Position numbers and translations under genes: made by a program. Shown in pieces: positions 1,395-26,475 of a DNA stretch of 64,000 bases (position 1 is the stretch's first letter; every line of letters starts with the position of its first letter). Under the pieces are notes generated by a model, which saw only the letters and a program-made list of their open reading frames with translations, had not been told where the DNA came from and ran no database searches. The DNA lies in assembly GCA_029204225.1 (NCBI GenBank), contig CM055095.1:15964049-16028048 (forward strand), in the 5' to 3' direction. Source of the stretch: Diphasiastrum complanatum. Its lineage: Eukaryota; Streptophyta; Lycopodiopsida; Lycopodiales; Lycopodiaceae.

Positions 1395-4081
1395 ATGGCT
1401 CGGAGGACAGAGCTGCAGATGAGGCATGAGCCTAACCCGCCTTCTAGTGCGGGATCCTCGACACCACCTCCAGCCGTGACCATACCGGCACCACATCAGC
1501 CACTTGAAAGAGGGAGAGGTAGACAGGGCCACACTACACAGCTGGGGGTTAGGGACTATTATGTGTCCACTGTCGCTCCTAGAGAAGGGCGATGAGTACA
1601 GTGAGTGCGATTGGGTAGGTGTGGCCGGGGCCATCTTGTGAGCACCTGAGGACGAAGGGACTTCTTGATGAGCGGGCTTCTGTTGACCAGAAGCTAGAGC
1701 CTCTCAGGAAGGCATGGGCCCAGTACGTACTACTATCCTTTTAACTTTATGCACTGTAAACTTTAAAGACTCTATGATGATTGACCATTGATATGTAGTA
1801 TGTACATTGTAATTTGTACAGTTTTCATACATTGTGGTGGCATTGCATACTTATTACTTGTTAATAGCCATTTATGTTTAATCATGAATCATGATTGTCA
1901 ATTTTCAAATGATCATTCATCATTGAGGGATCACTGCTCAGGGTTGCAACTTGCCATGAAATTTGAATGGAGCGATTCGAGGAGGTGCCACATATTGAAT
2001 ATCTTGGTGTCTTTGTGCCTGGGGACGATGTTTCTCAGATCCATCGACACCTCTGGGTAGGCAGTCACGGGCGAGTACATGTTCTCACACATTCGAGCTG
2101 CCATTGAGGAGGTGGGACCACAACACGTTGTACAAGTATATATATTATACTATAATGGTAATTTGCAAATGTTAATGTTGAATGTTCAATGGCGATTGAT
2201 TAACAATGGATTATGGTTCACTTGAATTCGGAATTCCAAAGTCATGCACATTGCATTTTATGGTTGTGCAGGTGTCATAGACAATGCGTCAAACTGTGTC
2301 TCCATGGGTAGGCTCGTTAATGAGACCTACCCCCACATCTTTTGGTCACCTTGTGCTGCAAACTGCCTGGACTTGTTGGTCGAGGATGTGGCCAAGATAC
2401 CATGGATTGCAGAGGTGGTACGTACCGCACGGTCCTTGGTGAGATTCGTCACCAAGAGGCCCAGGGTCTTGGCCATGTTCAGGAGATAGTCCACCTTGGA
2501 TATCTTGAGACCTACCCCCACTAGGTATGCAAGTTGCAACTCAAATTTGAGTGCGCTTCTGTTGGTAAGTATTTACTGTTTAGTTACTAGTAATGGCTAT
2601 TGTAGTTTGTAACTTTGCGAGCACTGAATGTTCAATGTACCTACTCTTGAATGTTCAATGCAATGCATCATATTTCATGCATGTATTGTGTTGTTAGAAG
2701 TTAGAACTTGTCACTTGTGCCCTGTGTAGGTTTGCATTTATGTTCCTGGTCCTGGAATGACTGTTGAAAGTTCATCAGGGCTTGAGGCAGATGGTTGTTG
2801 CCGTTGAGTGGGCGCAGTGGGGACAATCCCAGGAGCCCAGGAGTAAGGGATTCGAGCAGACCATTATGTTTTCATCATTTTGAGATGAGGCATGATCCAT
2901 TGTGGTGGGCCTACATCCTATCTACACTGTCCTGCGCCTTACAGATCGAGAGGGTTGCACATTGGGCCTCTTGTATGAGTTCATGGACAAGCTGGGCGAG
3001 CAGTTGAGCCTTTGCTCGACCAGTAGCCCAGAGAGGTATATCGCCAACGCTTATTACTTAAGCCTTACTAGTTAGTAGTTACTAGTAACTAGTTGGTACT
3101 AACTTGAAACCTCTAAGTTGTAACTAATGTTTGAAATATGAATCATCAGATTCTCTCACAGGACTGCATTGCAGTCGCTTGTGAGAGAAACTGGAGTGTT
3201 CATTCCTTGATTCACACGAAGTAGAGCAATCGACTCTTCTCTGCACAGTTGGAGAGGTTGGTGTAGTACGTACACGCCAACCTCAGACTTTTGGGTAGAC
3301 TCCAGACCACCGTAGAGCCATAAATTATAATTTCTAACATGTGATCCCAGTTAGTAGATACTAAATAGATCATAGTAGAATGTAGCTAAATTTTAACTTT
3401 TGTTGGGACTCGGCCGTCCAAATTTTGTCTTGATTTCAATGTGCATTGTGACATGTGCGTAGGTTAATCCCGATCTAATCGATGTGGCAAAGGTTCCAAA
3501 GTTGCCACCGAGAGACCAGGCAGAGGAGGACGTGTACGCAATCCTCCATGAGGAGGCCATGCAGAGTGCAGGTGAGAAATTAGGATTTAGCTCTAGCCTC
3601 TAGGCTCTTAGAAGTTAGCACTTGCTATCAAGGTTGACAACTTGACGTTGCATGCTTCTGACTTGTCACTTCAGGCTTGTCAGTTCAAAGTTGACAATGT
3701 GTCACTTGTCTAAGGTCTTGAATTAAATTTTCGAAGTTCGAACTAATTATTGTAATTTACTAATTTTCAGGCAATAATACGTTTGTCACTCCTTGTGTGC
3801 ACTGTGCAGGACCTGTCACTCGAGCAGAGCGCAGGAGGAGGGCAAGAGAGGGTAGCAGCTCCCATGCTCACAAGACGACGAGTTTGAGTCAGAGGCATCG
3901 TCAGGGTCAGAGTCCTCAGAAGAGGAGGAGTATGTGGATGAGGAGTCCGAGGAGGGCAGGGATGAGGATGAGGGGCATCATACCTCTGCCTCCGATGAGG
4001 ATTTCGTTGCTGCCACTCGAGAGACCACAACAGGCTCCACAACACCAACGAGCAGGAGGAGACTCAGGCCTAGGAGAGCTT
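1395..4081 (+). pseudogene. Degenerate hAT-superfamily transposase (DUF659 type)
   Basis: Several exon-like blocks in hAT order are visible. A basic/proline-rich N-terminal block starts at ATG 1,395. Around 2,272-2,489 the peptide contains VIDNASNC, then HIFWSPCAANCLDLL and a stretch ending VRFVTKRP; this is the DUF659/hAT core with its second catalytic Asp. Around 2,730-3,030 come MVVAVEWAQW and GLLYEFMDKL. Around 3,150-3,320 come VACERNWSVHSLIHTK and YVHANLRL, the hAT C-terminal dimerisation region. At about 3,863-4,081 lies a strongly acidic Ser/Glu/Asp tail ending in an Arg-rich peptide, common in plant members. The blocks are separated by intron-like DNA and carry stops and frame changes, so the gene is dead. 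The family assignment is firm. I did not find terminal inverted repeats or an 8-bp target duplication. Confidence 0.8.
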
Positions 4082-4349: not shown

Positions 4350-4895
4350 GTTTTGTGAGCTGAAGTTATGGAAAAGCTGATCACCTCTTTCTCTGATATG
4401 GAACATTTTATAGTTGAGTCTTTGCTTAGGGATGATTATTCGCAGTAGATTTGAGGCCTATTCTTTTTGAAACTTTGCTAAAGACAAAGAGATTAACAAT
4501 CCAATGCTTCAATCCTGATGATACAAGCCTTTTTGTAGGGACAAAAAGTTCTAGTGTTACCAAAACTTGAGGCTGTATTTTATTTCTTTCGTTTAGTTCC
4601 AAAAGATAAACCACTTAGCTGAAAGTGACTCTTTGCTTTTTCAGATTTCCATATAACTGAGATTAGAAAGCAGAGTAACTAGTCCCGTATCACTCGAGAA
4701 GCACGATAAAGAATACAAAATTTGACTTAAAGCATAACCTCCTACAATGACTGCAGAAATAGAAATCAAAATAAGAAATCCAATCCTAAAAGCAGAAGTT
4801 CTTCAATTTGGATATGAATATGCATAAACAATTCACACCTCAAAATTCAGCATGGATGGAATTTCTACCAGGCTTCCTCACTCATGAGCTTGCAC
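4350..4895. repeat. Left arm of a ~540-bp inverted repeat
   Basis: This segment reads as the reverse complement of about 9,250-9,787. Shared words, allowing for orientation, include GAGCTGAAGTTATGGAAAAG, AGGGATGATTATT and GAATATGCATAAACAATTC. Both arms contain a similar short reading frame (peptide words KRLVSSGLK and NNHP), which may be chance conservation. Terminal identity is lower at the inner edge. Confidence 0.8.
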
Positions 4896-9249: not shown

Positions 9250-9787
9250 ATACAAGCTCGTGAGCGAGGAAGCCTAGTAGAAAGTCCATCCACGCTGAAT
9301 TTTGAGGTGTGAATTGTTTATGCATATTCATATCCAAATTGAAGAACTTTTGCTTTCAGGATTGGATTTCTTATTTTGATTTCTATAGTCATCGTAGGAG
9401 GTTATTTTTTTTTTGTATTCTTTATTGTGCTTCTAGAGTTATACGGGACTAGTAACTCTGCTCTTGAGATGTTGCTTTCCAATTTCAGTTATATGGAAAT
9501 TTGAAAAAGCAAACTGTCACTATCAACTATCGAAAGTGGTTTATCTTTTGGAAATAAACGAAAGAAATGAAATGCAGCCTCAAGTTTTCGTAACTCTAGA
9601 AACTTTTGTCCCTGCAAAAAGGCTTGTATCTTCAGGATTGAAGTATTGGATTGTTAACAAAGTTTTAAAAAGAGTAGGCCTCAAATCTACTACAAATAAT
9701 CATCCCTAAGCAAAGACTCAACTATGAATGTTCCATATTAGGGAAAGAGGTGATCAGCTTTTCCATAACTTCAGCTCACAATAAAAA
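9250..9787. repeat. Right arm of the ~540-bp inverted repeat
   Basis: Reverse-complement partner of 4,350-4,895. It lies about 100 bp upstream of the LLG-like exon. The arrangement could come from an inverted segmental duplication or a foldback element; no flanking target duplication was found. Confidence 0.8.
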
Positions 9788-9892
9788 GCAAGACGTTCTT
9801 TTTAAATGCTATAACCCATTCTTTGTATGATTTGCATTGATTACTGAAATAGCAACAGAAGAGAACCTTATTGTCTTTCTGGTGAATTGCAG

Positions 9893-10260
9893 CTTGTCCT
9901 ATTGATATGGCTAATCTAAATTATACTCCGTGCATTAGCATCTGCAAGGCACCAAACTTCCCCAAAGTTCCATGTTGCGAAGGCTTCAAGGCAGTTGTTT
10001 GTCCCATTGTCCTTTATTTCAATAATGCATCTACAGATTGTCCTGATGAGTTCTTTTCTTATCTCAATCTTTATGGAAGCTTCCCTGGTGGCCTTTTTAA
10101 TGACTATTGTGTTGAAGGAGTTCAGGGTTTGGCTTGTCCCCTTGTTCCTGCACCATCACCCTCTCACGGGGTGCAAAAGTCCAGATTGAGTGCTACCTAC
10201 TTGCTTAGTCTTATTGGTGGTTTTGGCATGAGCTACTTTATACAATTATCATTCACATAA
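9893..10260 (+). CDS. LORELEI/LLG-type GPI-anchored protein, terminal exon only
   Basis: The exon follows a good 3' splice site (GTGAATTGCAG, ending 9,892) and runs to a TAA at 10,258-10,260, about 122 codons. The peptide has the Cys pattern of plant LORELEI-like GPI-anchored proteins: ACPIDMANLNYTPC, PKVPCCEGFK, CPIVLYFNNASTDC, FFSYLNLYGSFPGGLF and GVQGLACP. It ends with a hydrophobic tail (LLSLIGGFGMSYFIQL) suited to GPI-anchor addition. Known family members are secreted and act as chaperones or co-receptors for FERONIA-type receptor kinases. No upstream exon with a signal peptide is recognisable, so either the first exon is distant or this is an orphan duplicate. The exon itself has no internal stop. 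Confidence 0.75.
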
Positions 10261-11240
10261 AAGGAGGTGATGCCTTATGATGCTATCACAAACTTTTTGC
10301 ACAACGCTTGCCAAGGAGTTCACAGCAATTATGCACAACCAATTATTGGTCATTGTTTGATCAAGTGAAAATTTTAATGTTTATTTGAATTTGTAAGATT
10401 ATGAAGCATTGAAAGATTGGGGATGCCAGTTTAGTGATTGATGTACGACTGTAATGGGCAAGTGAGCTTTTAGATTAGTGACTATTAATGGAGCGCCATT
10501 TTTCTTTGATAATGACTTGCTTAATTAAGAAACTATTGAGACATTGGTTGAATGTCGTTTTCACTTGTGATCAATAATTGAAAGTTCTTATATTCTTCAT
10601 ACATTTTGTAGTGTGAAGCTTTGATATTGCGTCATGTTAATTTCAAGCATATCTACCTTTTATTCACTCAAAAATTTGAAAGTCAAATTCAAAGGAATCT
10701 AAATTGTGTGAGCAACAAGAAATCTTATGAAATGAGAAATGGCACAAGACCCAATTTTTTTGTGTGAATTTATAATTTTTTGAAATTCAAAAAGTTTTTT
10801 AACCCTAAATTTGTAAATGATTTCATTATTTTGCAAAATTGTATATTTAGCAAATAATTTAAATTGGAAGTATTGCAAACTATTTTTAAAATTTTTACAC
10901 TGAAATGGGTCAAAAAATAAAAATATCATTAATGTGCAATTTGTTATTATGAAAAATAGTTGTTAAATTAAGCAAGTGATTGTAACATTTTTAAAATTAT
11001 TTTTTTTACTAAAAAAACAACAAAAAATACTTTGACATGAATTTGACAACAGGGACAACCTATATAAAATTTGATATTTGTATGTTAACAATCAAGTAAA
11101 CTAAACAAATATAGTATCCAAAAAATATGCTAAATTTATAACATATATTATTCAACAAAAGCATTTACCAAAAAGAAAATTAAAAACATCTAAGAAATGA
11201 ATATTTTGTACAAAAAATACAGTAATCTTTCGAATAAAGA
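10261..11240. other. AT-rich flank, no gene seen
   Basis: This is 3' flanking DNA of the LLG-like exon followed by very AT-rich sequence. There is no coding evidence. The left edge of the methyltransferase-bearing unit may fall here, but I could not locate a terminal repeat. Confidence 0.5.
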
Positions 11241-11247
11241 GATTTTT

Positions 11248-11652
11248 TTATAAATAAATGTTTTCAATTACAGTCTCAAAAATTTTCAACCGAATCATCA
11301 GGATTTGGAGTAGCAACCCTTCCAGTTCTCCTTCATCACCAACTACACCACTGGTAGGTGGTTGAGGCTCCTTAACAAATGGAGCGATACCACCTTCAGA
11401 GGGGCCTAATTTACTAACTTCTTGAAATTCATCAAGCAAAATTGGAATACCAGCTAGTCTCATCTTAACAAAATTTGATAAATCCTCATCTAATTCTATG
11501 GCCGCAACATGTCTGCCCTTTTGGACAGCACATGCACTAGTAGTGCCACTACCACTAAACAAATCTAAAATCCAGTTTGCGGGATGAGAACCAATTAATT
11601 TATTTACAATCTGTTGTGGCTTTTGATATGGACAAGCCACAGAACCAGTCAT
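11248..11652 (-). CDS. Methyltransferase C-terminal exon: SAM-binding motif I
   Basis: Last exon of the methyltransferase remnant. It reads YQKPQQIVNKLIGSH, then WILDLFSGSGTTSACAVQKG and RHVAAIELDEDL. This matches the DNA_methylase N4/N6 family: a motif X-like KP..I...LI segment, the FxGxG AdoMet loop in FSGSGTT, and the acidic end of the next strand in AIELD. The rest of the exon is Glu/Pro/Gly-rich with no known domain. This block is open throughout. Confidence 0.8.
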   Translation of the reverse strand: MTGSVACPYQKPQQIVNKLIGSHPANWILDLFSGSGTTSACAVQKGRHVAAIELDEDLSNFVKMRLAGIPILLDEFQEVSKLGPSEGGIAPFVKEPQPPTSGVVGDEGELEGLLLQILMIRLKIFETVIENIYL

Positions 11653-12076
11653 CGGATTTTTTAATTTTTGGTCACTGCAGAAAAATCAAAATGATTTCTA
11701 AAATTCGTGTTTCCTGCAGTGTTGTAGTGCAACATGGATCTCTTTCCATCGGTAGAGAAATAATTGATGCTGAGATCTTCGATCTCATTAGAAAGACGTG
11801 CACCACCAGAATTGTGCACATTTGGCTTGTACCTACAAACATTGAAAGCAAATAATCAAAAAACCAAATAATGTAACATGTTTAAAAATATTAAAAAGAC
11901 TTGTAAATATATATGTTTAATTAAAAACAGTACTTACCAAATGGCGTTCTTTATCCCTGCATTGCAGACTTCCAGTAGGGCTTTGTGAACACCTACTTGT
12001 TGCCAACTGGAGTGAAATATCACTATCCTCCAGAGCGGAGCGGTAGCGATCTCCAAGAAACCAGCAACATCATCTT

Positions 12077-12415
12077 TTACTTCGGTGTACTTAAACGATC
12101 ATCATTCAATGAGGCCGCAAGTTTGAAGCCATATGGAACATCAGCGATGCAGAGAGTGTAAGGTCTTCTTTTTACAAACTTGGAGATCTCTCTGGCATCA
12201 CCTTGTTGTATAAAAACAAGGAGGATCATCAACAAACTTGGGAATACACGTCTCTTTGGGATCATCATCAACGTTTGAGTCTCCAGTCTGTTGAGATTCT
12301 TTGTGTTTTTTCTCGGCCTTAGCTTTTTGCAGGTGAGTTCTAAACTGCTCAGGAAGCTGCCCAGTCTTTTTATCTTCAGAACTTTGTGAAAAATAGAAGC
12401 ACTTATGCTAAGCAT
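12077..12415 (-). pseudogene. Methyltransferase exon with DPPY-like catalytic motif
   Basis: The 3' half reads FVKRRPYTLCIADVPYGFKL. The ADVPYGF stretch sits where the (D/N/S)PP(Y/F) motif IV of amino-methyltransferases belongs; the first Pro appears as Val. Upstream, a different frame carries the lysine-rich linker KAKAEKKHKESQQTG, so the exon has a frame change. The following exon contains NEIEDLSINYFSTDGKR. Confidence 0.65.
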
Positions 12416-12830
12416 GGATTTACTAAATGTTAAACTGAAATTTTAAGAAGAATAATTTAGAAAGATTTGACAAGAGTAGAAATCCACTTATGCTAAACAT
12501 GACATTCAAATGTAAAAATTGTTACTAGTGACATAAACTTATGCTAAGCATGAGTGATAATCTTAAAAAACAACAATATAAAAGAAAACAATAAACATTA
12601 AAAATACACTTCTGCTAAGCATGAATGACAATCTTAAAAACAATTATCTAAAAGAGAAGTAAGGATATCAGAGGTACACCTATGCTAAGCATGGGTCTTT
12701 TAAATGCAAAACTTGAAATTAAAAGTGATAAAAACTTATGCTAAGCATGAATAATGATCTCAAACTAACAATCTACAAAATAGTTAAAAACAAACACCCA
12801 TGCTTAGCATAAACAATATTCGCAAATTGG
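12400..12830. repeat. ~65-bp diverged tandem repeats, each with an ATGCTAAGCAT-type palindrome
   Basis: Copies of CTTATGCTAAGCATG or close variants start near 12,405, 12,490, 12,541, 12,612, 12,682, 12,738 and 12,800 (the last is ATGCTTAGCAT). The spacing is about 50-85 bp. The sequence after each palindrome is also similar (GATAATCTTAAAAA-like), so these are decayed tandem units. They lie in the middle of the methyltransferase gene, in an intron-like interval. A further partial copy is at about 14,445. Confidence 0.8.
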
Positions 12831-13374
12831 TAAATTAAAGTCGATTTATGTAAAAAAAGTTATCATATCTCTAAATAAAATAAGAAATCTTTGCAACTCT
12901 TCATCTTTTGAGTTATTTGGGTACAGCCATTGGCATTCCTCCCGATCCTTGCAATTCAGGCTCTTTACCATAGACTCTTGCACTTTCATGAAAAGCTTGT
13001 GTATGAAAAAAAACAATAATTAGATCCAAGTTTTTGCAATTGAGTTAAAAAATAAGAATTTTGCTTTAGAAAATCAAAATTACTTTTGAAATTCTTTTCC
13101 CATCTCAATAAGGCTGAGTTGTCCGTCGACAACTCTCGACAGGACACTCACAACCACATCCTTTGATGGGATGCCTTGCATATTCTTCCACTCTGATATC
13201 CCCATATCTTGGGAGATGGGGGCAAGAGTTAATTGTGTGGATTTTTTCTTTTGGAAGGACGACTCTTTTGAAAGTTGTCATTTTATCTCAAATCTGTCCC
13301 ACTTGTCAAAAAATTTATCGACAAGGTCCCAAATCTGAAACAAAAAATAATTTGTCAAAGGACTGTAATTTGAT

Positions 13375-13833
13375 TCAAAAAAATGAAATAACAAAAATAT
13401 TCTTAAGAACAATAATCACCTGCCCTTTTCGGAAGGCCAATTGAAAGACATTGTCATATTTCGTAAGTGAGGAGGTTGGATTTTTCTCATCAAATGGAAG
13501 CCTAGTCTCCTGTGCACAAAGGCACTGGAATTGTATATTTGTTTTGTCTCCTTTTTTGTGAAGCCTCAGGTACTCTCTGTGAAAAAATCTGACTCGTTCA
13601 ATAACGGTCATCTTTAGCCTGTAATCCTGGTCGATATTATGATCCCAAGCAAGGAGCTTGGCTTCCTCAACGGTCAACTCATCAAAAACTATAGCACTAA
13701 CTTGTCTAAATGACTGTACATGAGGATACTCTACGGAGAGCTCCTTTCTGGCTTGCAAATTATGGATTCTGCCCAAAACAAAAAAATTGTAGGTGTCTAT
13801 AATTTGGACATCAAATCTGCTAATGTCGGACAA
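13375..13833 (-). CDS. ParB/Sulfiredoxin-like domain exon of the methyltransferase gene
   Basis: The peptide reads DTYNFFVLGRIHNLQARKEL, then IVFDELTVEEAKLLAWDHN and MTVIERVRFFHREYL. This fits the ParB/RepB/Spo0J-like fold: a strand leading to G-x-H-x-x-x-A, then a Val-x-x-(D/E)-Leu-Thr-x-x-(E/Q)-A segment and an hN motif. In prokaryotes and phages this domain is often fused to or paired with DNA methyltransferases. The exon ends at a donor (CAG|GTGATT) at about 13,423; its open frame runs into the intron. The N-terminal part of the domain continues upstream in a different frame (FIVLVDPADCPTLAD). Confidence 0.7.
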   Translation of the reverse strand: MSDISRFDVQIIDTYNFFVLGRIHNLQARKELSVEYPHVQSFRQVSAIVFDELTVEEAKLLAWDHNIDQDYRLKMTVIERVRFFHREYLRLHKKGDKTNIQFQCLCAQETRLPFDEKNPTSSLTKYDNVFQLAFRKGQVIIVLKNIFVISFF

Positions 13834-15524
13834 TCAGCAGGGTCCACAAGGACAATGAATGGGGTAACAATGGCTTGGGTGTGGACTTTAAATTTTATCT
13901 CTAAATTATGTACATGAGAGGAATTAGGCTCTCTCACCTCCATGGGCCTATCACCGGTGACTCGGTCAATTGGAGGCCTATCACATTGTTCAATGTTCAA
14001 GAATGAACATTGTGGCTTGGATTTTTTTAGTTTCATGCAATAATTTGGCGCATTTTGGCAACATCCCTGCTAGCTGGCTCTAGATTAATTCTAGCCCCAG
14101 GTAAATTTAAATTAGAGGTCTGGGGCTGAGGTCTCTTAGAGGAGCTAGGATGTACTTCTTTAGCAAGCTTTGTTTTAAATCCTCTCGATTAAGGTGGGGA
14201 GGATGCTTCTTTGATTTTTTCCAAACCACTACGTTTTCTCTTTGAAGTTGACATTAATCCTGATCCAGTGGTAGAATCAAGTGTTTGGGTGCTTGGCTCT
14301 TGCGAGAGGATAATGATCTCGCAGATTTAGAAAGCACAGGGTCCTCTTTTTTTTTTTTTTTTCCAGAGCTCCAGCAACCATCTGTATTGCAGCTTTCAAT
14401 GTCTGAAAAAAATAAAATAAAGTAATTACAAAGAAACCATACCCATGCTAAGCAAAAAGGGATAACTAATACTCAAATTTTGTTTTCATGCAAAACAAAT
14501 TGAACTTACAATCATCTTCAGGGCGTCATCGAAGAAGTTTTGAAGTATGGCATGTTCACAAAGACAAATCTTCATAAACCTGTTCTTCAGAATGTAGAAA
14601 AATATCTTCTTGTCAATAGCTCTTACAATTAGGTTTGTAAATCCATCATCCTCGTCTGCAATCGCTACCTTCTAAAGCACGTGTCCTTGTGCTTTGAAGG
14701 TAGATGGCTCTTTTCCAGAAGTATCAGCAGTCCAGAGGAAGAGGTCCGTGAGTTTCTAGCCATCACAACCCTTGGTAAAGTAAAGCATGTGCTTAGTCAT
14801 GTCTACTTTTTGATGATTCGAAGGGTTTATAGGCGGACAAACTTTTAGCTGAGTCATTGATTAAGCAACCAATAACTCTCTATGATTCTAAAGTACAATC
14901 ATTATTGTCCTAAAAACTGTAAAATTTATCATGGTATCAGAGCTAAGTAAGAGAGTGATCATTGAATCATAAATCTTGTAAAGATCATTGGCAAAATTTG
15001 TTTTTGGCCAATACTAGTGAGGGCGAGTTCATCTAGAGTGATAGCTTGAATTCATTTGGATCAAAACGACTTGGAGGCTGTGTATGTACGTTTCACACGT
15101 GTGAAACCATACAACAACTTTCATTTCAAGTTACTTTGTGTTTTTTGGTCCCAAAATCACAATACTAGTTCATTTTTTGTGCTTTTTGAAGCATAGTATT
15201 GATCTAGATTCAATCTAACTAATACCTATGACCAAATAGAGTTTTGGATCATTGAAGCATTATTTTTTAGAGTCTAAGATCAAAGCTTAGAGGCTGATTT
15301 GTTCAGATCCTTAGTTGAAGTGAAATCTCTAAGAAAAGTGTAAAGCAATTTTTTTTGTGAGAGTGAAAGCTAGGAATTTTTGGCAAGATCTTTGTGTATC
15401 ATTCAAGCTTGTGTGCTAGTTTGATAGAGACAAGCCTATAGGCATTCTTGTAAGCTTTAGGCCTTTCATAGATCTTTTAAAATTCAGAAATCTTTGTGAT
15501 TTTAAGAAGAGCATTCATTCTACA

Positions 15525-16440
15525 ATGTCATCCATGGGTGGATATTTGATGGAATCAAGTGAGAGACTCACTTCCACAAATTATTCCATTTGGAAAGTGA
15601 GAATGGAATCACTCCTAGTGATCCATGATCTATTTGACATAGTTCAAGGAGTTGAAGAAGAGCCTCAAACTCCCCAAGAACAAGCCAAATACAAGAAGAG
15701 AGCAAGATTAGCTCTACATTGCATAAAGTTAAATGTATGCAATGACCTCTTGAAAGAGGTGTCTTCTTGTACCTCATCCAAAGAGGCTTGGGATTCATTA
15801 AAGAGAATCTATGAATCCAATAATACTTCAAGAATCCTCATGCTAAGAAATCAAGTTTTCCAAAGCACGAAAGGAAGTGGAGAGAGTGGACAAGAGTATG
15901 TCCTTAGGATCAAATCTCTTAACAAGGAGTTAAGTGCAATAGGAGAGAAGATCCAAGATCAAGAGCTAGTACAAATCATCTTGAATGGTCTAGGTGATGA
16001 GTTCACCACTTAGTCCAATCATTTGCCATTCAAGACACTCTTCCATCCATTGAAAACTTGCACAATGTTCTTGTGGCCGAGGAGAGTAGGATTCTACACC
16101 TCTTGACAAGAATGGATAGCATGTCACTTAATGGAGGAGAGGAGAAGGCTAACTTTACATCTAAAGGCAAGAAGAAGCAACATCCATTCAAGAAAAATCA
16201 AGTCAAGGAGGCCGAGATGAAGAATGGAGGATCTACTTCCAAAGGCAAAGTGAAGAACAAGGCAAAACTCAAGTGTTTCTTTTGTGGAAAGAAAGGACAC
16301 TTTGCCTCAGAATGCTACTTGAAGAAGAATCAACAAGCCAATGGAGATCAAGGGAACATTGCTCAAGAGGAAGAAGATGAGGATGGATTCAACACATCCT
16401 TAATGGTTGCATCATACACCAACTTCAAGTCAAGACACAT
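15525..16440 (+). pseudogene. copia gag region (fossil)
   Basis: Part of the copia element. It begins at ATG 15,525 with a UBN2-type gag (peptide words STNYSIWKVRMESLL, HCIKLNVCNDLLKEVSS and LRNQVFQSTKGSGES). A lysine-rich stretch leads to one CCHC zinc knuckle (CFFCGKKGHFASEC) near 16,272-16,313. Confidence 0.88.
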
Positions 16441-19400
16441 GGTGGATAGATAGTGGGGCTAGTTCCCACATGTCTTTTAACAAGCATTATTTTTCTACTC
16501 TTCTATTTTGTAATGACTCTAAGAAGTCAATATACACGGCTAGTGATCAAGCATGCAAGATCGATGGCATAGGTTCTATACATCTTTGCTTAGGCACATC
16601 AAAAAGGATAGATCTAGATAATGTTTTGTATGTTCCTACAATTTCAAGAAACTTGCTTAGTGTAGGACAATTAATGGACAATGGACTAGATGTACATTTC
16701 AAGAATGGAGTTTGTTCCATCTTGAAAAATGATAAGTGCATAGCTAGTGGCATTAAGCAAGGTAGACTTTTCAAGTTGGATGCTAATGTTGCAAGTGAAA
16801 GTGTGAACTTGGCTAGGGAGGAGCTATCTCAAGTGGAGCTATGGTATAAGAGATTAGTCCATCCTAATCTCCAATCTATGGAGTCAATGGCAAGCAAGGA
16901 ACTAGCTCTCGGCCTACCAAGAGCCTTCAAGGAGTGTGGAAAGATGTGTGAGGCATGTGGCCTTGCAAAGTCACACAAATCTTCTTACAAGAGATCTTCA
17001 TCAAGATCTACCTATCCCTTGGATCTCATACATTCTGATGTACATAGTTTTTCACATGCAAGTAATGGAGGTGCTTTGATGTATGTAACTTTTATAGATG
17101 ATTGTACTAGATTCACATGGATTGAGTTACTATCAAAGAAAAGTCTTGTTTTGAAGCTTTCATTAAGTTCAAGTGTCTAGTAGAGAAACAACTTAGTACT
17201 TCCATCAAAGCACTAAGATGTGATAATGGAGGAGAGTACACCTCCAATAAAATGAAAGACTTTTGTGAGATCAATGGCATTAAGTTGCAATACACTTGTT
17301 CCTACACCCCCCAACAAAATGGGATGGCCGAGAGGAAAAATAGGAGTCTATGCGAGTGTGTAAAGTCTTTAAGACTTGATGCATCACTTCCCATCTCATT
17401 TTGGGGAGAAGCTATAACATGTGCTAATTACTTGTGTAATAGACTTCCTAGTAGTGCTATAGATGGGATCTCACCTTATCAAGCCTTGTTTGATAAGAAA
17501 CCCAATGTAAAAGATTTTAAGATCTTTGGATGTATTTGTTATGTTCACATCCCTTTGGAGACTAGAAGGAAAGAAGATGCTACCTCCTTCAAAGGGATCT
17601 TTGTTGGCTATGGAGAAAATAGCAAGGGCTATAGGATATATGATCCTATATCCAAGAAAGTAAAGGTAAGCAAGGATGTACTTTTTGATGAGTCACAATT
17701 TGCTAAGAGCTTGTCAAATGGATCTAACCCATTGTGCATTGAAGATCTTGACAAACCCGAGGAGGATCTTGACAAACCCAAGGAGGATCTTGACAAACCT
17801 GAGGATGGAGACATGGATCCAAGTCAAAAGGGGCCGAGAAGATCATCAAGAAGCAAGGCCGAGCCCTCAAGGCTCACCTATGTGGACAAGGGAAAGCAAA
17901 AGGAAGACTCTACACCTTCTACCTCTTACTCCTTCTTAGCTACATTGCTTGAAGAACCATCATCTTTTGAAGAAGCATATAAATCTAAAGTTTGGAGAGA
18001 TGCAATGCAAGTAGAGTATGATGCATTAGAAGAAAATCATACTTGGAATCTTGTAAATTTTCCAAGAGGGAAGAAACCACTTGCATGTAAGTGGATTTAT
18101 AGAATAAAGTACAATCAAGACGGATCTATTAGTAAGTACAAAGCTAGGCTTGTTGCTAAGGGATTTCTTCAAATAAAAGGATTGGATTATGAAGAAACAT
18201 TTGCACCTGTAGCTAAGCTTGTAACTATTAGATTAATGCTTTGCATTGTTACTTTGTTCAAGTGGGATCTCTACCAAATGGATGTGACAAATGTTGAATG
18301 GCTTCTTAGAAGAGGAAATCTACATGATGCAACTTGAGGGCTTCATCAAGGTTGGTGAGGAGCAAAAGGTGTGCTACTTAAGGAAGAGCCTATATGGCTT
18401 GAAGCAAGCACCTAGAGCTTGGTACTCTAGGCTGCATGATTTTCTCTATACTCTTGGCTTTGTACTAAGTGCTTATGAACCTTCTTTATATTTCAAATGT
18501 TATGAAGGAATGATCATCATTTTGGTACTTTATGTTGATGACATCATTTTGACAGGAAATGATGATGAAGGTATAAGCAAAATAAAAGTTGATTTATCTA
18601 GTGAGTTCAAGATGGTAGATCTAGGCTTCCTAAAGTTTATACTTGGAATAGAAGTGTCTAGAAGTAGCAATTGTACTTTCATAAGTCAATCTAAGTATAC
18701 TACTTCCATTCTTGAAAGATTTGGTATGAAAGATTGTAAGGGGATTGACACCCCTATGGAGCATGTTGTGAAAACAACTAATGAAGGTGATGAAGCATCC
18801 TTTGAGGACATCACCCTCTTTAGAAAGCTAATAGGCTCTCTAATCTATTTGACCATCACTAGACCTGACTTAAGTTTTTGTGTAAGTAAGTTGAGTCAAA
18901 GTATGCAAGCTCCTTTAGTTCATCATTGGAAAAGTGCCAAGAGAGTACTTAGATATGTTTCTAGTACTAGATTTTTTGGCATACTTTATAAAGGATCTAA
19001 TTTGCACTTGAGAGCCTACTCGGATTCAGATTTTGCAGGTGACAAGATGGATAGGAAGTCCATTAGTGCATTTGCAACATTTCTTTGTGGAGGAGTAATA
19101 TCTTGGCTTTCCAAAAAGCAAGATACAATCTCACTGTCTTCTTGTGAAGCCGAGTACAAGGCATTGACTTCAACAACCAAAGCGCTCCTATGGCTAAGAA
19201 GACTCTTGATGGAGCTACATGTGCTAGAGGCCGAGGAGATCCCTTACATATTTTGTGACAATCAAGCTTCTCAACAAATTGCTTCAAATCCTATCTTCCA
19301 TGCTAGAACAAAGCATATTGAGATAGCTCATCACTTTGTGAGGGAGAAGGTACAATCCAAGGAGGTGCAACTACATCATGTACCATCATCCAAATGCATA

Positions 19401-19499
19401 GCTGATATCTTAACCAAGCCATTGTCCAAAGATCCATTTTTTAAGTTAAGATATGCTCTAGGAATTGTAGATAGATGTACATTAGATTTGCCAAGTTAG
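16440..19499 (+). pseudogene. copia pol region: PR-INT-RT-RNase H (fossil)
   Basis: Parts in order: protease DSGASSHMS near 16,450; GAG-pre-integrase zinc-binding region near 16,850-16,990; integrase core to about 17,560 with TPQQNGMAERKNR; reverse transcriptase about 17,990-18,900 with YGLKQAPRAWYSRLHDFL and LYVDDIILTGND; RNase H about 19,010-19,430 with AYSDSDFAGD and SSCEAEYKAL. A short, nearly identical Asp/Lys/Pro/Glu repeat occurs near 17,740-17,810 between integrase and RT. Confidence 0.92.
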
Positions 19500-20374
19500 A
19501 AGTGAGGAGGAGTGTTGAAAATTATCACTTCTCACTTCACATTGGTTATTGTAAATATTGATCAAACATTAGAATAATGTTGATGATCTGATTTCACACA
19601 TGTGGAGCCTGTTCCCACGTGTGAAAGGATGTTCTTTTCATACTTGTATATATCTAAATTGATTTTGTATCAATCTAGTTAGTGTGAACATGATATGACT
19701 AGTTTTTAGTCAAGTTGACTAGTCACCTAGAAATTAGCTTTTCCTTGCATGTGCATGAGTAAATGCTCCCACATGGCAAGTGGATGTTCACACGTGTGTA
19801 TAGAGTATTAGAAGATAAGAGTTGACCATTTTCCTTAGATCCTATTTTATAGGGAATATTCCTATATTCTAGGAGACTAGCTTTTTGGATTTTAGCCATA
19901 TTCTAGAAGGTCAACTTTGGATAAGGATCAAGGATGGATCAAATGGATAGATCTGAGTGATGTGGCACTCTTCACACGTGTGAAGACCTGCTGGACTGTA
20001 CCAGACTTGTGGATGTACTTGATCCATGAAAGGATCATCATTTTGCTAAGAAGATTGATGAGACTTTTGCATTCTACACTTTTGTGAGGTTTATGGTCAT
20101 TTGTCTTGTGATTTCTATGAATGATTGCTATCTAGGATTATTGTACTTGTTGTTTCAGGTGCAGGCCGTACTATGGACAATACTCCACACGTGTGAGGCC
20201 GCTCTCACTAATTTATGATGTGTTGATCCATTGCTCTTGCTTAAATCCAAGTGTAGTGAATCTAGATCAAGATCTAATGTGTAGAACTTGATAGATCCAT
20301 TGATTAAGCAACCAATAACTCTATATGATTGTAAAGTACAATCATTATTGTCCTAAAAACTGTAAAATTTATCA

Positions 20375-20426
20375 GTTGGCTCCCGACTTATGCTCAGCAT
20401 AAGTCCAAAGAGGACCTATGCTCAGC
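20375..20426. repeat. Left end of the ATGCTNAGCAT palindrome array
   Basis: Directly right of the copia element. It contains ACTTATGCTCAGCATAAGT (core at 20,390-20,400) and then a half-palindrome, CCTATGCTCAGC, where the next element is inserted. The linker TCCAAAGAGG is also found in the main array at 23.1 kb, so the two parts were once contiguous. Confidence 0.85.
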
Positions 20427-22989
20427 TGTTAGGGCCATTTTTGGCAGGGGATTGGTCCAGCCAAAACGTCCTAAAAGGGTCAAGGCCCCCGTGCTCTCCA
20501 ACCGATGAGAGTTTTCCAGGCTCTTAGAGATACGGTTGCAAGGAGGGGGTGCTGTCACTTTTGGTGCAATGATTCACTAGCTTTCTAGGGTTACAGTGGT
20601 TCTGTAAAAATTCTGATCACTAATTCACGTTAGGATCTTGCTAACATCTCTTTCCCCATTGAATTCGGTTTACAGTTAGTAAAAATCTCACATGGGCTGG
20701 AAACTGATTTACTGTTTATGATGTGCTCGTGGGGTGCAAGTTATACGCACCGCTTTGTTTGCTAAGCGGCAATATTTTTGTCGACCGTCGGGTCTAGGTA
20801 TTTCGCTAGACAGTACCGACGGCAGGTGTGACTAGTGTGACGCTTAACCAAGGCAGTGTATCTCAACCGTGGATGGTGGACGGCCCGCTCTGGTGTTTCA
20901 CAGAGGTCAGGTCCAATTAATACGCTTCATAATTGAAAAAACGTAAGAAACACTTCAAAAACTTGACGATTCCATATAAGTGTTTAATAAATCTAACTCA
21001 GCAAAATGTAAACTACTTAACCTACGGTTCTCTCCACAAAACACATTCTAAATCATTACGAAACAAGTCGTTTACTACACAACTTTCACTAAGCCAGTTG
21101 GAAATAAGCACTCATTGTTCTAATTACCCATACCGCATGTTTATAAAATATTATGATTTCGAACTGAATTCAGATTTGTGCTAAAAAACGATTCACTACA
21201 ATGCGCAATCGACCCATACTCTACGACAATCCATTCACTAGTTAGGTGATTGCAATTACTGAACTTAAGCAAAAACATTCCCATTGCAAGCAAGTGTTTA
21301 TGAGTCCATACTACCGGTAAACCCACAAATAAGCACAAACCTGATACTTCCGTGTCTACTTGTTCAAAAAAAGGATCACAATATATTGTGTCATAGTAGG
21401 GATGGATAAAACCCATAGAGGTATATCTGGAAGAGTTTCAGACAGAGAGTAGCCAGTGTAGAGATATCAGTGAGGACCGTGAGAAGGTCAGCGAGGGCTG
21501 ACAGATGGCCGCAGCTCCAACAGGATATACATAGCTCTGACAGCTAGGCAAATCCCCGGACAACGTTTGTGGTCGATTCCATGCCGCAAGCAGGGCACAG
21601 ACAACTCATAGGCATACTGGGAGGCTGCACACAAGTCTGAAAAACACAGGTAGACCAGGAAAATGGGCGGCAGCCTACAAAGTGGCCACATACAGGCTGT
21701 TTTAGGCTTCAGGCAGGTGCAGGTAAGATAGCAGGCTACAAATGGCTCGTTGGCAGGTTGCTCAGGCCAGAGAATGGGTAAACAGACAGCAGTAGGTCTG
21801 ATTCAAGCTGCACCACCCACAACAGGCTGCAATCAGACCTCAATCTCTGTTTGTTTGGGCGCATGCAATGATCAAAGGCTGCAACAGGTCTGGTTCAAGC
21901 TTCAGACAACTCGGACAGGCCGCAAACAACTGGTATAACCCGCAGGTAGGGTTTGGAGGCCGTTGACAGGCTTCAAATTGGAACTAATTTCAAGCATCCA
22001 TTCCAACACTAGCATTGAGCAACAAGCATTCATAATAACAAAGGGGAACTAACCAACATTGAACTCTCTCAAGCAAACAAGCTCTCCACATTCAACTCCC
22101 AAATGTACCAACTCCTAAAAATACTAACCCACAAAAGTACTAACATACAAAAGTCCTAACATTTGAAATACAAGGAGTTGGCTCCTTCTTATAGGAAAAT
22201 CCAATGCATCCCCTTCACAATGCCATCTTGCCATTCTTCATGCCCTTCAAGCCCTCTTTGCCACTTGTCCCCAACCCAATTGATAGTACACCTAGTGGCC
22301 TCCATAAGAGAGTGGGGGAGTGGTGCATTCAAGGCTCTCTTCCAAAACTAGCCAAGATGCCATTTTTGTCAAAGGCTAGGGAGGCCATTCAAGTTTCTCC
22401 TTTTGTACACCCTAGAAGGCCAAAATGTCAATGGCTAGTGGGTGTACCTCCCAAATTTTTTAGCCTCCAAGGTGTTTTGGCATTTAATATCCAAATTTTG
22501 GGTGAGGCCCTTTTTCAACCCCTATTTTTAGTAGCTGACCTTCATTTTTCCTTGGGTACTTGTGTTTTTTGCCTTTCTTCGATTTTTCAAGGGCCGTGCA
22601 CCTACTGCTCATTTGTCTAGGTTTTTGGTTTGTTGGGTAACTCCTTGGCCCGCATATTTCGTTAATTGCCCGTAAATTGCCCAAATTTTGCAGTTAGGGT
22701 TTCTGTGATTCCTTGACACTGAATCCATGTTTCCCGGTCCCGTTTTTGCCCGAAACTTTTCTTTCTCGATTTTTTTTTCCTGTGGTTGACTTTTGCGGCA
22801 TTCATGACTAGGGCTCCCACAACAACACAGTTTTCTTGAAAAATACACTGAGTGATCATATATTAGTAAAAATGGACTCTGTACATGGTGAGATTTTAGC
22901 ACGGTCATACCGGCTATTTTTCTACAACTTGCCATTTTTTTGAAAAGCCAATATTAGCCCGATTTTCTGTGCAAAAATATCGGCTAACA
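20427..22989. mobile_element. Solo-LTR-like element with 5-bp target duplication
   Basis: The element begins TGTTAGGGCC and ends GGCTAACA, so its tips form TGTTAG/CTAACA inverted ends. It is flanked by TCAGC on both sides (20,422-20,426 and 22,990-22,994). The flanks lie in the two halves of one array palindrome, which makes the boundaries firm. It is about 2.56 kb with no gag or pol, so a solo LTR or a non-autonomous element is most likely. A related start (TGTTAGGGCC...GGTCCAGCCAAAA) occurs at 54,052. The matching target duplication suggests a fairly young insertion. Confidence 0.82.
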
Positions 22990-23370
22990 TCAGCATAGGT
23001 CGAGAGCGAACCTATGCTGAGCATAGGTCAGCACTCGACTTATGCTGAGGATAAGTCGAGAGCGGACCTATGCTCAACATAAGTCCAAAGAGGACCTATG
23101 CTCAGCATAGGTACGCTCTCGACTTATGCTCAACATAAGTCAAGAGGTATCTATGCTGAGCATAGCTCCTCTTTGGACAAATGCTGAGCATATGTCCAAG
23201 CATAGGTCGAGAGCGGACTCTCAGCATAAGTCGATGGACGACCTATACTCAACATAAGTTCAAATAGGACCTATGTTGAGCATAGGTCCGCTCTCAGCTT
23301 ATGCTCAGCATAAGTGGGGAGAACATGTTGCTTAGCCAAAGACCAAAATAAAGCTATGTTGAGCATGGCT
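22990..23370. repeat. Main array of ATGCTNAGCAT palindromes
   Basis: About a dozen palindromes or near-palindromes lie in 380 bp, roughly every 28-35 bp. Perfect ATGCT(C/G)AGCAT cores are at about 23,014, 23,098, 23,152, 23,181 and 23,301. Others have one or two changes (such as CTCAACAT or GTTGAGCAT). Two flank types occur, CCTATGCTGAGCATAGG and CTTATGCTCAGCATAAG, joined by linkers such as TCGAGAGCG and TCCAAAGAGG. It lies between the methyltransferase gene (-) and the DUF7869-like gene (+). Likely roles are protein-binding sites or structured DNA; neither is proven. Confidence 0.88.
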
Positions 23371-24479
23371 TGGGCCCCACAATACAGCTTCAAAAAATCA
23401 AAGCTAAACTGGAAAGTTGTAAAATATGGTTAACTTACTTGAATCTTGAGATGTCAGCTTCCGGGAGCCAGTCCTAAAATTAGCAATCTTTGGAAGCTTA
23501 TGCTTTGTCTAATAGACCAGTCGCTTAGCTAAAACCAAGAGCCAGAGAGCGCAAGAAAAGCAAATGAACAGACAAAGGTGAGTTATGCCATGTATGTGCT
23601 CCTTAAATACTGTATGGGAACTGGGTGAGTCTCATCTTTCATGTGTTGAGTTTGATGGAAAAGGATGAATGACATCCTTTAAGTCTAAATTGTGGCTTTT
23701 CCTTCCATGCTCGTCATCGAAGTTGAATTTATTTGGAACTTTAATAACATCTTCGTTTTAGCTTGGAATGGGGCGAAGTAAAAAGGAAACTTAAAGCAAA
23801 TATTGTATTGTTTTCGACTGTGCACTGTAAACAAGGATTCGATTTCAACGTTGACTTACAAAATTCATTTATTCTTTGTTTCGGGTTGCTTAAGAAACTA
23901 AAAATATAATTCTGTTGTGTTTGACCTTGGTAGTCAACCAAAAATGAACGTAAGTTTTAATTTTACACGTTAGTTTTATTTTCTACGGCAAAACCACGAA
24001 CACTAGTTTAAAATTTTAAGATCTTGAACGTATTACAACATGGGGTATTTTGACAAGGTTTAGGTAACTTCACTCTCTCGTATTTTGCCTTAAATGTTGC
24101 AAACTAATTAAGGACATGGGCCTTACCAAAATTTTACCTAGAGCATAATGTCAGCAAAATTTTTAAAGTAACCCTAAATTCAAAAGTCTCTAGGACCTAG
24201 CTTTCGCCTGAACACTTTGTCTAAGTACTTAAAGATGTGGTTGCCAGTCTAGAAACATTTCATGCTTAGGTCTTCGAATGTTCTTGTTTGCTCTGTTGTT
24301 TTCTGGTTATCATAATCTATTCAAACTAGCATACTTGCTTTTCTATGTTCAACATAGAATTAAGTCTTCAGTTTTTTTTTAGTTTTTTGTTGACTTATTT
24401 AATCAAGTCCCGTGACTAAAAGTAAAATTGTAATTGTTTTAATTTTGACTTCATAGTACTTTTTCATTTTAATTTAGCA
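23371..24479. other. Presumed 5' region of the DUF7869-like gene
   Basis: AT-rich DNA between the palindrome array and the first possible ATG of the rightward gene. No supported coding region. It may hold the promoter and leader. Confidence 0.45.
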
Positions 24480-25939
24480 ATGGAAAGTTCATCTTCTTTA
24501 GTTCCTCCTGCTGTAACTTATTACGACGAAATTTCTACGAGTTCATCTTCCGACATCAAAATTACAACTGTGTACCACACGAGGTGACTCCAAGTTCGAC
24601 ACAAACTGTTGAATTAAATTCGAAATATTCATGATGTACAAAGATTTTGCAATGTCGAAGAATGTTCAGTATTTAACTTATTCTTATTTCGTGAAACTGT
24701 GGAAGAAAGATTTTGGTTTGGTAAAAATTCCGATAAAATCCAGAATGTCTGTTTGTAGCATATGCGAACAGTTAAAAGTGCTCAGAGAACAAGCCAAAAG
24801 TCCACAGGAAAAAGGTATTTGCTAGATACTACATTTTGTTATTTTTTTCAAACACCCAGTTTGATTTTCTGTTAACACTTTCAGTAAGACAAAAGCTTGC
24901 CAAGCACAGGAAAAAGTGTTTGGAGTTTCCTCAAAAGTATTTGGGTCTCGTAATCGACGATATGGATCAAAAGAAGACACTATTACCACATTTTGTGAGG
25001 GTGCCAAAAAATCTAAACGAAGTGGATTTCATCCAAGTTCATTTAGTTGGAGCTCTTATATTCAACGACACCTTGCAGTCTAAAGTGTATTTTAATTATC
25101 CCAATGTTCGAAATGATCCAAACTTGACCATTACCATAATTCACAAAATAAAAGTTGAATTTGAAAACAGTCTTCTTGAGATTCTTTACTTGCAACTTGA
25201 TAATACTGCCAGAGAAAATAAAAATCAAACAGTGCTGGCATATTTGTCTATGTTGGTTGCTTTAAAAATTTTCAAAAAAATCAAAATAGGATTTTTACTA
25301 GTGGGTCATACTCACAATCAAATCGACCAATTGTTTAGCTGCTTTTCCAAAAAGCTGAGACGCAAAAAAGCTTTCTCTTTGCCGATACTGCAGAGTGTTA
25401 TTGAGGAATTGTACACCCCTAGACCAAATGTGTTTTTACTACGACGCACATTTGATTTTAGAGACTACATAAAAACGGCGGAGGAACATTGCACTGCACC
25501 AATAAATGATATTAGTTTTCAACATCAATTCAAAATTGAAAATGATATTGGTGGCATCACATTGTTGTGGGCAAAGCAATTTTCTAACTCTACGGAATGG
25601 TTACCACCTGATGGAGTTCGTTTCTTACAAAGCGTGTCTTCTTCTCAAATTAAGCTTGCACCTTTGTGTCACCGAACTTCTACAATGGAAGAGCAAAAGA
25701 CTCAAAGAGAACATCATCCAGTTGATCCATTTGCGGCTTTAAACTTTTTGAAAATGACCATTCAAGCAGCATACCAATTTTTTGATGAGTTTGATCGACA
25801 TTGGTGGACGGATTTTTTTGAAGAGCAAAAGTTAAGTTTGCTTAACTTGGGAGATGCAAACTTGTCTGAGGAGTTTCACTGGCCGTTTAGATTTTTAACT
25901 TCAACAACGACAGTTGATTCCTCTGTTGTTGTCCAATAG
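24480..25939 (+). CDS. DUF7869-like protein (putative RNase H-fold transposase/integrase relative), spliced
   Basis: A short frame at 24,480-24,587 may be the first exon. The supported exons are 24,631-24,814 and 24,885-25,939, joined across a 70-bp intron (GTATTT...CTTTCAG) that keeps the frame. The protein shows a CxxC pair (CSICEQLK), then YLGLVIDDMDQKK, YLQLDNTARENKNQT and FLLVGHTHNQIDQLFSCFSK. These Asp, Asp-Asn and His-Thr-His...Asp blocks are the signature I know from the DUF7869 family, found in plants, oomycetes and animals and thought to be of mobile-element origin. A DDE-like active site is an inference. No internal stop occurs in the main exon, unlike most neighbours. A possible small last exon (YLGPRKSRQTVNATKAKWF) ends near 26,041. 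It is divergent to the methyltransferase remnant across the palindrome array. Confidence 0.7.
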
Positions 25940-26166
25940 GCTGAGTATTTGATCCCTTCTGCAGAATGACAAACGTCAAATTTATTTGGGTCCTAGAAAA
26001 AGTCGACAAACTGTAAACGCTACCAAGGCTAAATGGTTCTGACCTCAATGAATTAACGGTCGGGAGTCTCATTGCACTTTTGGCATCAAAAAAATAACGA
26101 AAGTCATCCATTTTGAATTGCTAAAGTGATTGACTTCATTCAGACGACGACACCAAGATTGTACAT

Positions 26167-26475
26167 GTGCACTGGATGCATACTGTTTCAATAAATGCTT
26201 TCTTGGGAAGGTACGAGCTAGAAATGTTACAATTAGATTCAAAGGGCAAGCGGAAGCGTTCAACAAAGAATCAACCAAGAATCGATGATGTACTTGCATT
26301 TAATTTCAAGTTGACAATGACCAATCATTTACGAAAGTCAACAATATCTATTTTGCAAGAACGTCATGGATCAAGTGCACAACCATCATCTTTGACTCGG
26401 CTTCAACATAGCAAAGCCACATTACAAAATTTTCTCTCAACATTAAATGGATCTACAAAAGATCCACAAGAGTGA
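26167..26475 (+). CDS. Hypothetical short ORF downstream of the DUF7869-like gene
   Basis: A 102-codon frame, basic in its first half (DSKGKRKRSTKNQPRIDDVL), Ser/Gln-rich later. I do not recognise a domain. It could be a diverged last exon of the upstream gene or chance. Confidence 0.25.
   Translation: MHWMHTVSINAFLGRYELEMLQLDSKGKRKRSTKNQPRIDDVLAFNFKLTMTNHLRKSTISILQERHGSSAQPSSLTRLQHSKATLQNFLSTLNGSTKDPQE

Follow-up and report, generated by a model that had tools for sequence, protein, structure and literature searches.

The window analysed here, a 64,000-nucleotide stretch of the genome of the clubmoss Diphasiastrum complanatum (C4:15964049-16028048, contig CM055095.1 of assembly GCA_029204225.1; 1.745 Gb in 5176 contigs, with 23 chromosome-sized contigs among the places listed), contains a decayed, broken copy of a terminal inverted repeat (TIR) transposon with two divergent genes at positions 10714-26444. 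The minus-strand gene combines a ParB-like fold with a DNA amino-methyltransferase (hereafter methylase), the plus-strand gene encodes a DUF7869 protein, a predicted transposase of the RNase H-like type, and an array of short palindromes lies between them. The initial annotation had confined this block to positions 11248-26041; the unit itself proved to be larger. The following features were assigned to it:

10714-26444, no strand: transposon remnant, bounded by the left TIR and a truncated right side, with two nested retroelements included
10714-10734, no strand: left TIR AACAAGAAATCTTATGAAATG, with similar ends in other loci
11248-14857, minus strand: pseudogene for a ParB-fold and beta-class amino-methyltransferase, multi-exon, exons inferred
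11248-11685, minus strand: last methylase exon, with motif I DLFSGSGTT (PF01555, 3.2e-8)
11938-12380, minus strand: methylase exon that carries motif IV (ADVPYG), with a frame shift in the window copy
12405-12810, no strand: palindromes, five without and two with a single mismatch, in the inferred methylase intron that precedes the motif IV exon
13418-14040, minus strand: ParB-like exon(s), homologous to P0121-P0123
14445-14455, no strand: one-mismatch palindrome in inferred methylase intron 1, with a counterpart in five complete copies
20375-20426, no strand: initial segment of the palindrome array between the genes
22990-23366, no strand: remainder of the intergenic array, with a ~28-bp period and ATGCT[CG]AGCAT palindromes of up to 23 bp
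24481-26444, plus strand: remnant of the DUF7869 gene (predicted transposase), N-terminal part deleted and 3' end cut
25007-25585, plus strand: DUF7869 domain, RNase H-like core (PF25273, 2.6e-50; predicted fold of the homologue P0028)

The left boundary at 10714 was shared with L031, L036 and further methylase loci with unrelated flanks. Ends similar to the left TIR of the window were present at L031, L036, L040, L043, L046, L047, L048, L051 and L055, and its inverted version formed the right ends of L002-L005 and L014. This window-type subfamily was represented by five right ends and by ten left ends, distinct from one another and differently flanked, that of the window among them; its ends read AACACGAAATCTTATGAAAYG with variants and its TIR AACACGAAATCTTWTGAAAYG with variants. 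The window copy was cut on the right at 26444, and L002, L003 and L005, whose ends were readable, continued ~420-500 bp further. The one window-type copy read at both ends (L031/L002) had CTAA on both sides. Another subfamily comprised five complete copies (L057-L060 and the C16 copy), which were five of six gene pairs spaced at ≤12 kb in one listing and were read whole. These copies aligned over 8.3-9.3 kb with 5.7-8.8% divergence, and their common alignment ended at the same two points. The left end was AACATGATGAC and the right end, inverted, was AACACGATGAC; the TIR AACA[CT]GATGAC was found in all five (in C16, the right end with its TIR was partly deleted). Fragments of other copies lay directly outside the C16 copy. 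The target site duplications (TSDs) of the complete copies were AGTT, AAGG, TTTA, TTAA and TTGA, and the alignment of several copies, initially suggested as a check, yielded shared termini together with 4-bp duplications in 6/6 copies examined. The 32-base right end of the complete-copy subfamily had 758 genome matches at ≤3 mismatches, and its control had 0. A rearranged copy (L009/L034), in which the first DUF7869 exon was inverted and the methylase pointed in the same direction as DUF7869, was excluded from the complete copies. A deletion derivative (L006, L007, L036) was also observed, in which the counterpart of window position 11237 was joined to the counterpart of 12172 and methylase fragments lay downstream of DUF7869.

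The association of the two genes was evaluated across the whole genome. The DUF7869 exon had at least 110 matched rows (107 of 4883 candidates scored), the last methylase exon at least 150 matches (150 of 2324 candidates scored), and a methylase query from another subfamily at least 150 (150 of 3447 candidates scored). The two methylase lists were merged into 238 places and compared with 107 DUF7869 places (three short rows were dropped). Among the matches listed, 11 pairs were spaced at ≤12 kb, all of them divergent, in comparison to a random expectation of 0.35; 14 pairs were spaced at ≤20 kb, 13 divergent (window included) and one in the same direction. Because the pairs at 73.6/73.8 Mb on C6 and at 38.0/38.2 Mb on C17 are likely recent duplicates, nine is the safer count of independent pairs. 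The initial annotation had made its reading depend on the pair recurring elsewhere, and within the Diphasiastrum genome it does. It is extremely improbable that two separate repeat families merely lie side by side by chance in the window: the copia insertion disturbed the junction there and most methylase places lacked a listed partner, but chance adjacency was ruled out by the divergence of 11/11 close pairs and by shared termini and TSDs that enclose both genes. The two genes almost certainly constitute a single two-gene transposon, which is common in the Diphasiastrum genome. The proposal of one mobile unit with its own transposase and methylase was likewise upheld by the divergent co-occurrence, the shared termini and the 4-bp TSDs, as well as by the purifying selection acting on the methylase and the integrase-like fold predicted for a homologue of DUF7869. 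Two scans of viral_contigs for a viral origin of the unit revealed no relative, which speaks neither for nor against such an origin.

The open reading frame (ORF) 24776-25939(+) matched PF25273 at 2.6e-50. In comparison to L004, ~800 bp were absent from the DUF7869 gene between 24575 and 24616, the frame was broken after 25939, and the 3' end was lost beyond 26444; the earlier description of this gene as nearly intact was therefore abandoned. The homologue P0028 had an integrase-like predicted fold, and an RNase H-like core with an acidic triad was recognised in the DUF7869 model. The DUF7869 proteins carried a CxxC motif before the core, and named matches came from organisms as different as liverwort, fern, mollusc and sea urchin.

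The exons and introns of the methylase gene were inferred from the genomic sequence alone, by eye at GT..AG borders, and its start codon was placed by eye in comparison to L002. Stops and frame shifts make the window copy a pseudogene. Its C-terminal ORF, 11248-11685(-), matched RsrI and CcrM in the PDB at ~5e-6, as well as MboIIA. Beta-class enzymes are defined by motif IV preceding motif I, and this order was observed here, with motif IV ahead of motif I FxGxG, together with the PF01555 match; the Ginkgo-type protein P0125 matched PF01555 at 7.6e-18. For the ParB-like part of the window methylase, a Pfam search gave no match above the cut-off. The homologue P0122 (Gb_10123, which we take from its prefix to be a Ginkgo gene) had a ParB/KorB-like predicted fold, consistent with the ParB-CTPase fold. 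In this model 438/758 residues had a predicted local distance difference test score (pLDDT) <50, and since the methylase half was poorly modelled, its class was assigned from sequence. The family mostly carried YVIGG[SN]HSxEA in the ParB part, the arginine of the nucleotide-binding P motif (Box II) being seemingly replaced by S (register by eye). The annotated minus-strand ParB-like domain and N4/N6-type methyltransferase agreed with the PF01555 match of the last exon (3.2e-8) and the ParB-like fold of the homologue. The ratio of nonsynonymous to synonymous substitution rates (dN/dS) was 0.07-0.33 in comparisons of three subfamilies whose synonymous sites were nearly saturated, which indicated, at the level of coding sequence, purifying selection on the methylase between subfamilies. 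Relatives were found in Ceratopteris richardii (P0140), in seven Gb_-prefixed genes and in many metagenome contigs, which suggests a wider distribution. These data bear on the alternative that the methylase was captured a single time as a passenger, was kept by chance and no longer methylates DNA. Its altered motif IV and the very many broken copies would agree with such a history, but the dN/dS values, the D-[IV]-P-Y kept in 11/15 readable copies, and the relatives in Ceratopteris and, by prefix, Ginkgo make it unlikely.

The palindrome ATGCTNAGCAT had 11 exact occurrences in the window versus 0.10 expected in shuffles, in agreement with the reported array between the divergent genes. Related palindromes had also been noted within the methylase gene, and those at 12405-12810 and the one-mismatch site at 14445 fell into its inferred introns. 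The complete copies carried 15-16 sites each at ≤1 mismatch: 2-3 in the intron that precedes the motif IV exon, a single one in intron 1, 10-11 between the genes and one just before the DUF7869 start, with one further weak site in L058. The usual spacing of their intergenic sites was ~41 bp, and the array period was ~28 bp in the window subfamily. Among 20 methylase loci, 13 had at least one exact palindrome ≤1.5 kb upstream of the last exon (11/17 without near-identical duplicates). The intergenic DNA of L002 and L058 matched at 8e-11, and after masking of the palindromes the best match was 0.04 (one pair of copies); between these two subfamilies the palindromes persist and the spacers no longer align. 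This retention fits a possible role of the palindromes as binding or modification sites. In the five young copies, 14/26 core changes were C-to-T or G-to-A. An alternative that we regard as rather improbable, but less so than the passenger history, is that the palindromes are DUF7869 binding sites, with DUF7869 acting as an autoregulator or transpososome accessory and the methylase acting elsewhere, e.g., on new copies or target DNA, which it would mark. Binding to internal repeats is common among transposases, the palindromes occupy the shared promoter region and the position just before the DUF7869 start, and the CxxC motif lies ahead of the core; nevertheless, two inferred introns of the methylase gene also contain palindromes, which take corresponding positions in the five complete copies and are present in other methylase loci as well, and no palindrome of the five complete copies was near the ends.

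Two later insertions into the transposon copy were present in the window:

14858-20374 (about), plus strand: copia insertion, with ORFs and the 5' long terminal repeat (LTR) mostly lost
20427-22989, no strand: solo LTR (TGTTAG...CTAACA), with the duplication TCAGC on both sides (by eye)

Only ~77 bp of the copia 5' LTR were left, and the LTR remnants were 97% identical over 77 bp. The solo LTR sat within the intergenic palindrome array. Both elements were classed as later insertions, in agreement with their earlier designation as late arrivals. Near the left transposon end, an ORF at 9886-10260 (+) by eye presumably resembles the cysteine-rich domain of LORELEI/LLG-type glycosylphosphatidylinositol (GPI)-anchored proteins. 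Elsewhere in the window, 4370-4870 and 9290-9790 appeared by eye to form a long inverted repeat of each other, and a fragment at ~2280-2520 (+) was taken by eye to resemble a hAT/DUF659-type transposase.

Common termini, 4-bp TSDs, dispersed copies, the two genes as a unit and purifying selection on both proteins were thus all evident in the compared sequences. The explanation that we favour is a TIR transposon that moves by cut-and-paste and carries two divergent genes. DUF7869 would be its transposase, with an RNase H core of the integrase/mariner type (suggested by the predicted fold) and conserved acidic residues (DGMD, LDN, HTHxxIDQ) as the likely catalytic triad, and would join the ends with a 4-bp stagger. 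The second protein would methylate amino groups of DNA bases, probably of adenine, while its ParB-like half keeps it on the DNA. Either this methylase or the transposase may dock at the palindromes, which lie in the promoter region shared by both genes and in the methylase introns; the methylase would mark or occupy the regulatory DNA of the element, which would stay expressed against host silencing, and it may also regulate the two genes of the element itself. Self-marking against silencing, by analogy with the role of VANC for VANDAL elements, is the most likely role of the methylase. The whole explanation, i.e., a two-gene transposon with a DUF7869 transposase and a self-marking or docking methylase acting against silencing, was given a probability of about 0.6. 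Several observations weigh against it. No selection on the palindromes was found in the five young copies, where 26/540 core and 106/2118 spacer letters had changed (4.8% versus 5.0%). Among the matches listed, 227/238 methylase places had no DUF7869 partner within ≤12 kb, and two lone methylase places contained neither DUF7869 nor an array in the 5 kb read where the partner was expected. In one of them a copia-like insertion lay within these 5 kb; many copies are therefore fragments or interrupted. The idea that DUF7869 stands beside every methylase was rejected on the basis of these two places. The Foldseek comparison of DUF7869 with the PDB was weak (first match Argonaute, best 2e-3). Finally, D-P-P-Y was found in 0 of 15 distinct readable copies of motif IV (D-[IV]-P-Y in 11), and P0125 has DIPH in place of the usual D-P-P-Y, so methylase catalysis may be altered or lost.

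Among the known cases examined, the VANDAL (MuDR) elements of Arabidopsis with their VANC protein appear to be the best functional parallel. To our knowledge, no methylase is known in VANC. As described in PMC5735166, VANDAL resembles the present element as a plant DNA transposon with a second protein and with short motifs outside its coding sequence: VANC binds such motifs in the introns and intergenic stretches of the element that encodes it, its targets are often tandem repeats that vary between related elements, and it causes loss of DNA methylation. Unlike VANDAL, the second protein here combines a ParB fold with a methyltransferase, and the transposase is of the DUF7869 type. Fungal TET/JBP transposons are likewise DNA transposons with a DNA-base-modifying enzyme; however, according to the accessible text of PMC12730594, this enzyme is a dioxygenase that oxidises methylcytosine, the transposases are of other lineages and the hosts are fungi. 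The virus-borne mariners Mariner-2_PGv and Mariner-1_OLpv, and the Sola2-Fanzor elements, also join a DNA transposon to a methyltransferase or accessory gene, but with mariner or Sola2 transposases and Methyltransf_26 or C5 methylases, and a ParB fold or palindrome array is not described in the part of PMC3627910 available. Sola2, compared by description only, shares 4-bp TSDs and short TIRs with the present element (PMC3627910, in part). DIRS1-like retrotransposons are eukaryotic mobile elements with a methyltransferase of unknown role, but are tyrosine-recombinase retroelements (PMC3266345, in part). The same two-domain combination, a ParB-CTPase fold fused to an N6_N4 methyltransferase, is phage-enriched; the fusions are prokaryotic, and 'transpos' and 'plant' appear 0 times in the main text of PMC12704722 as available. 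The similarity of P0125 to phage proteins was confined to the methylase half, with ~25% identity in the rows listed.

DNA transposons with a DNA-modifying second gene are already known; the novelty, as judged from sequence, would be the combination of a DUF7869 transposase, a ParB-methylase and palindromes in a plant element. In a literature search outside of which lay most subscription journals and Repbase, no report of this gene combination was found by title or abstract, and DUF7869 was not mentioned in the literature searched. The finding suggests a candidate function, that of a transposase, for a domain of unknown function, and points to selection on a phage-type DNA amino-methylase carried by a plant DNA transposon. 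With rows of palindromes between and inside the genes and a methylase of its own, the element may be able to place chemical marks on its DNA. We only tentatively propose, as a possibility that would probably fail, a lineage of land-plant transposons in which a phage-derived ParB-methylase writes an adenine or N4-cytosine mark on the palindromes of the element's introns and bidirectional promoter, as a code for self-recognition and against silencing. The presence of real N6-methyladenine (6mA) or N4-methylcytosine (4mC) in land plants is disputed, and the element offers this question a concrete enzyme, concrete candidate sites and hundreds of element ends. If such a self-marking lineage exists, it would be a source of true 6mA or 4mC in vascular plants; if the anti-silencing role is true, the VANDAL strategy would have been invented independently, with a writing enzyme.

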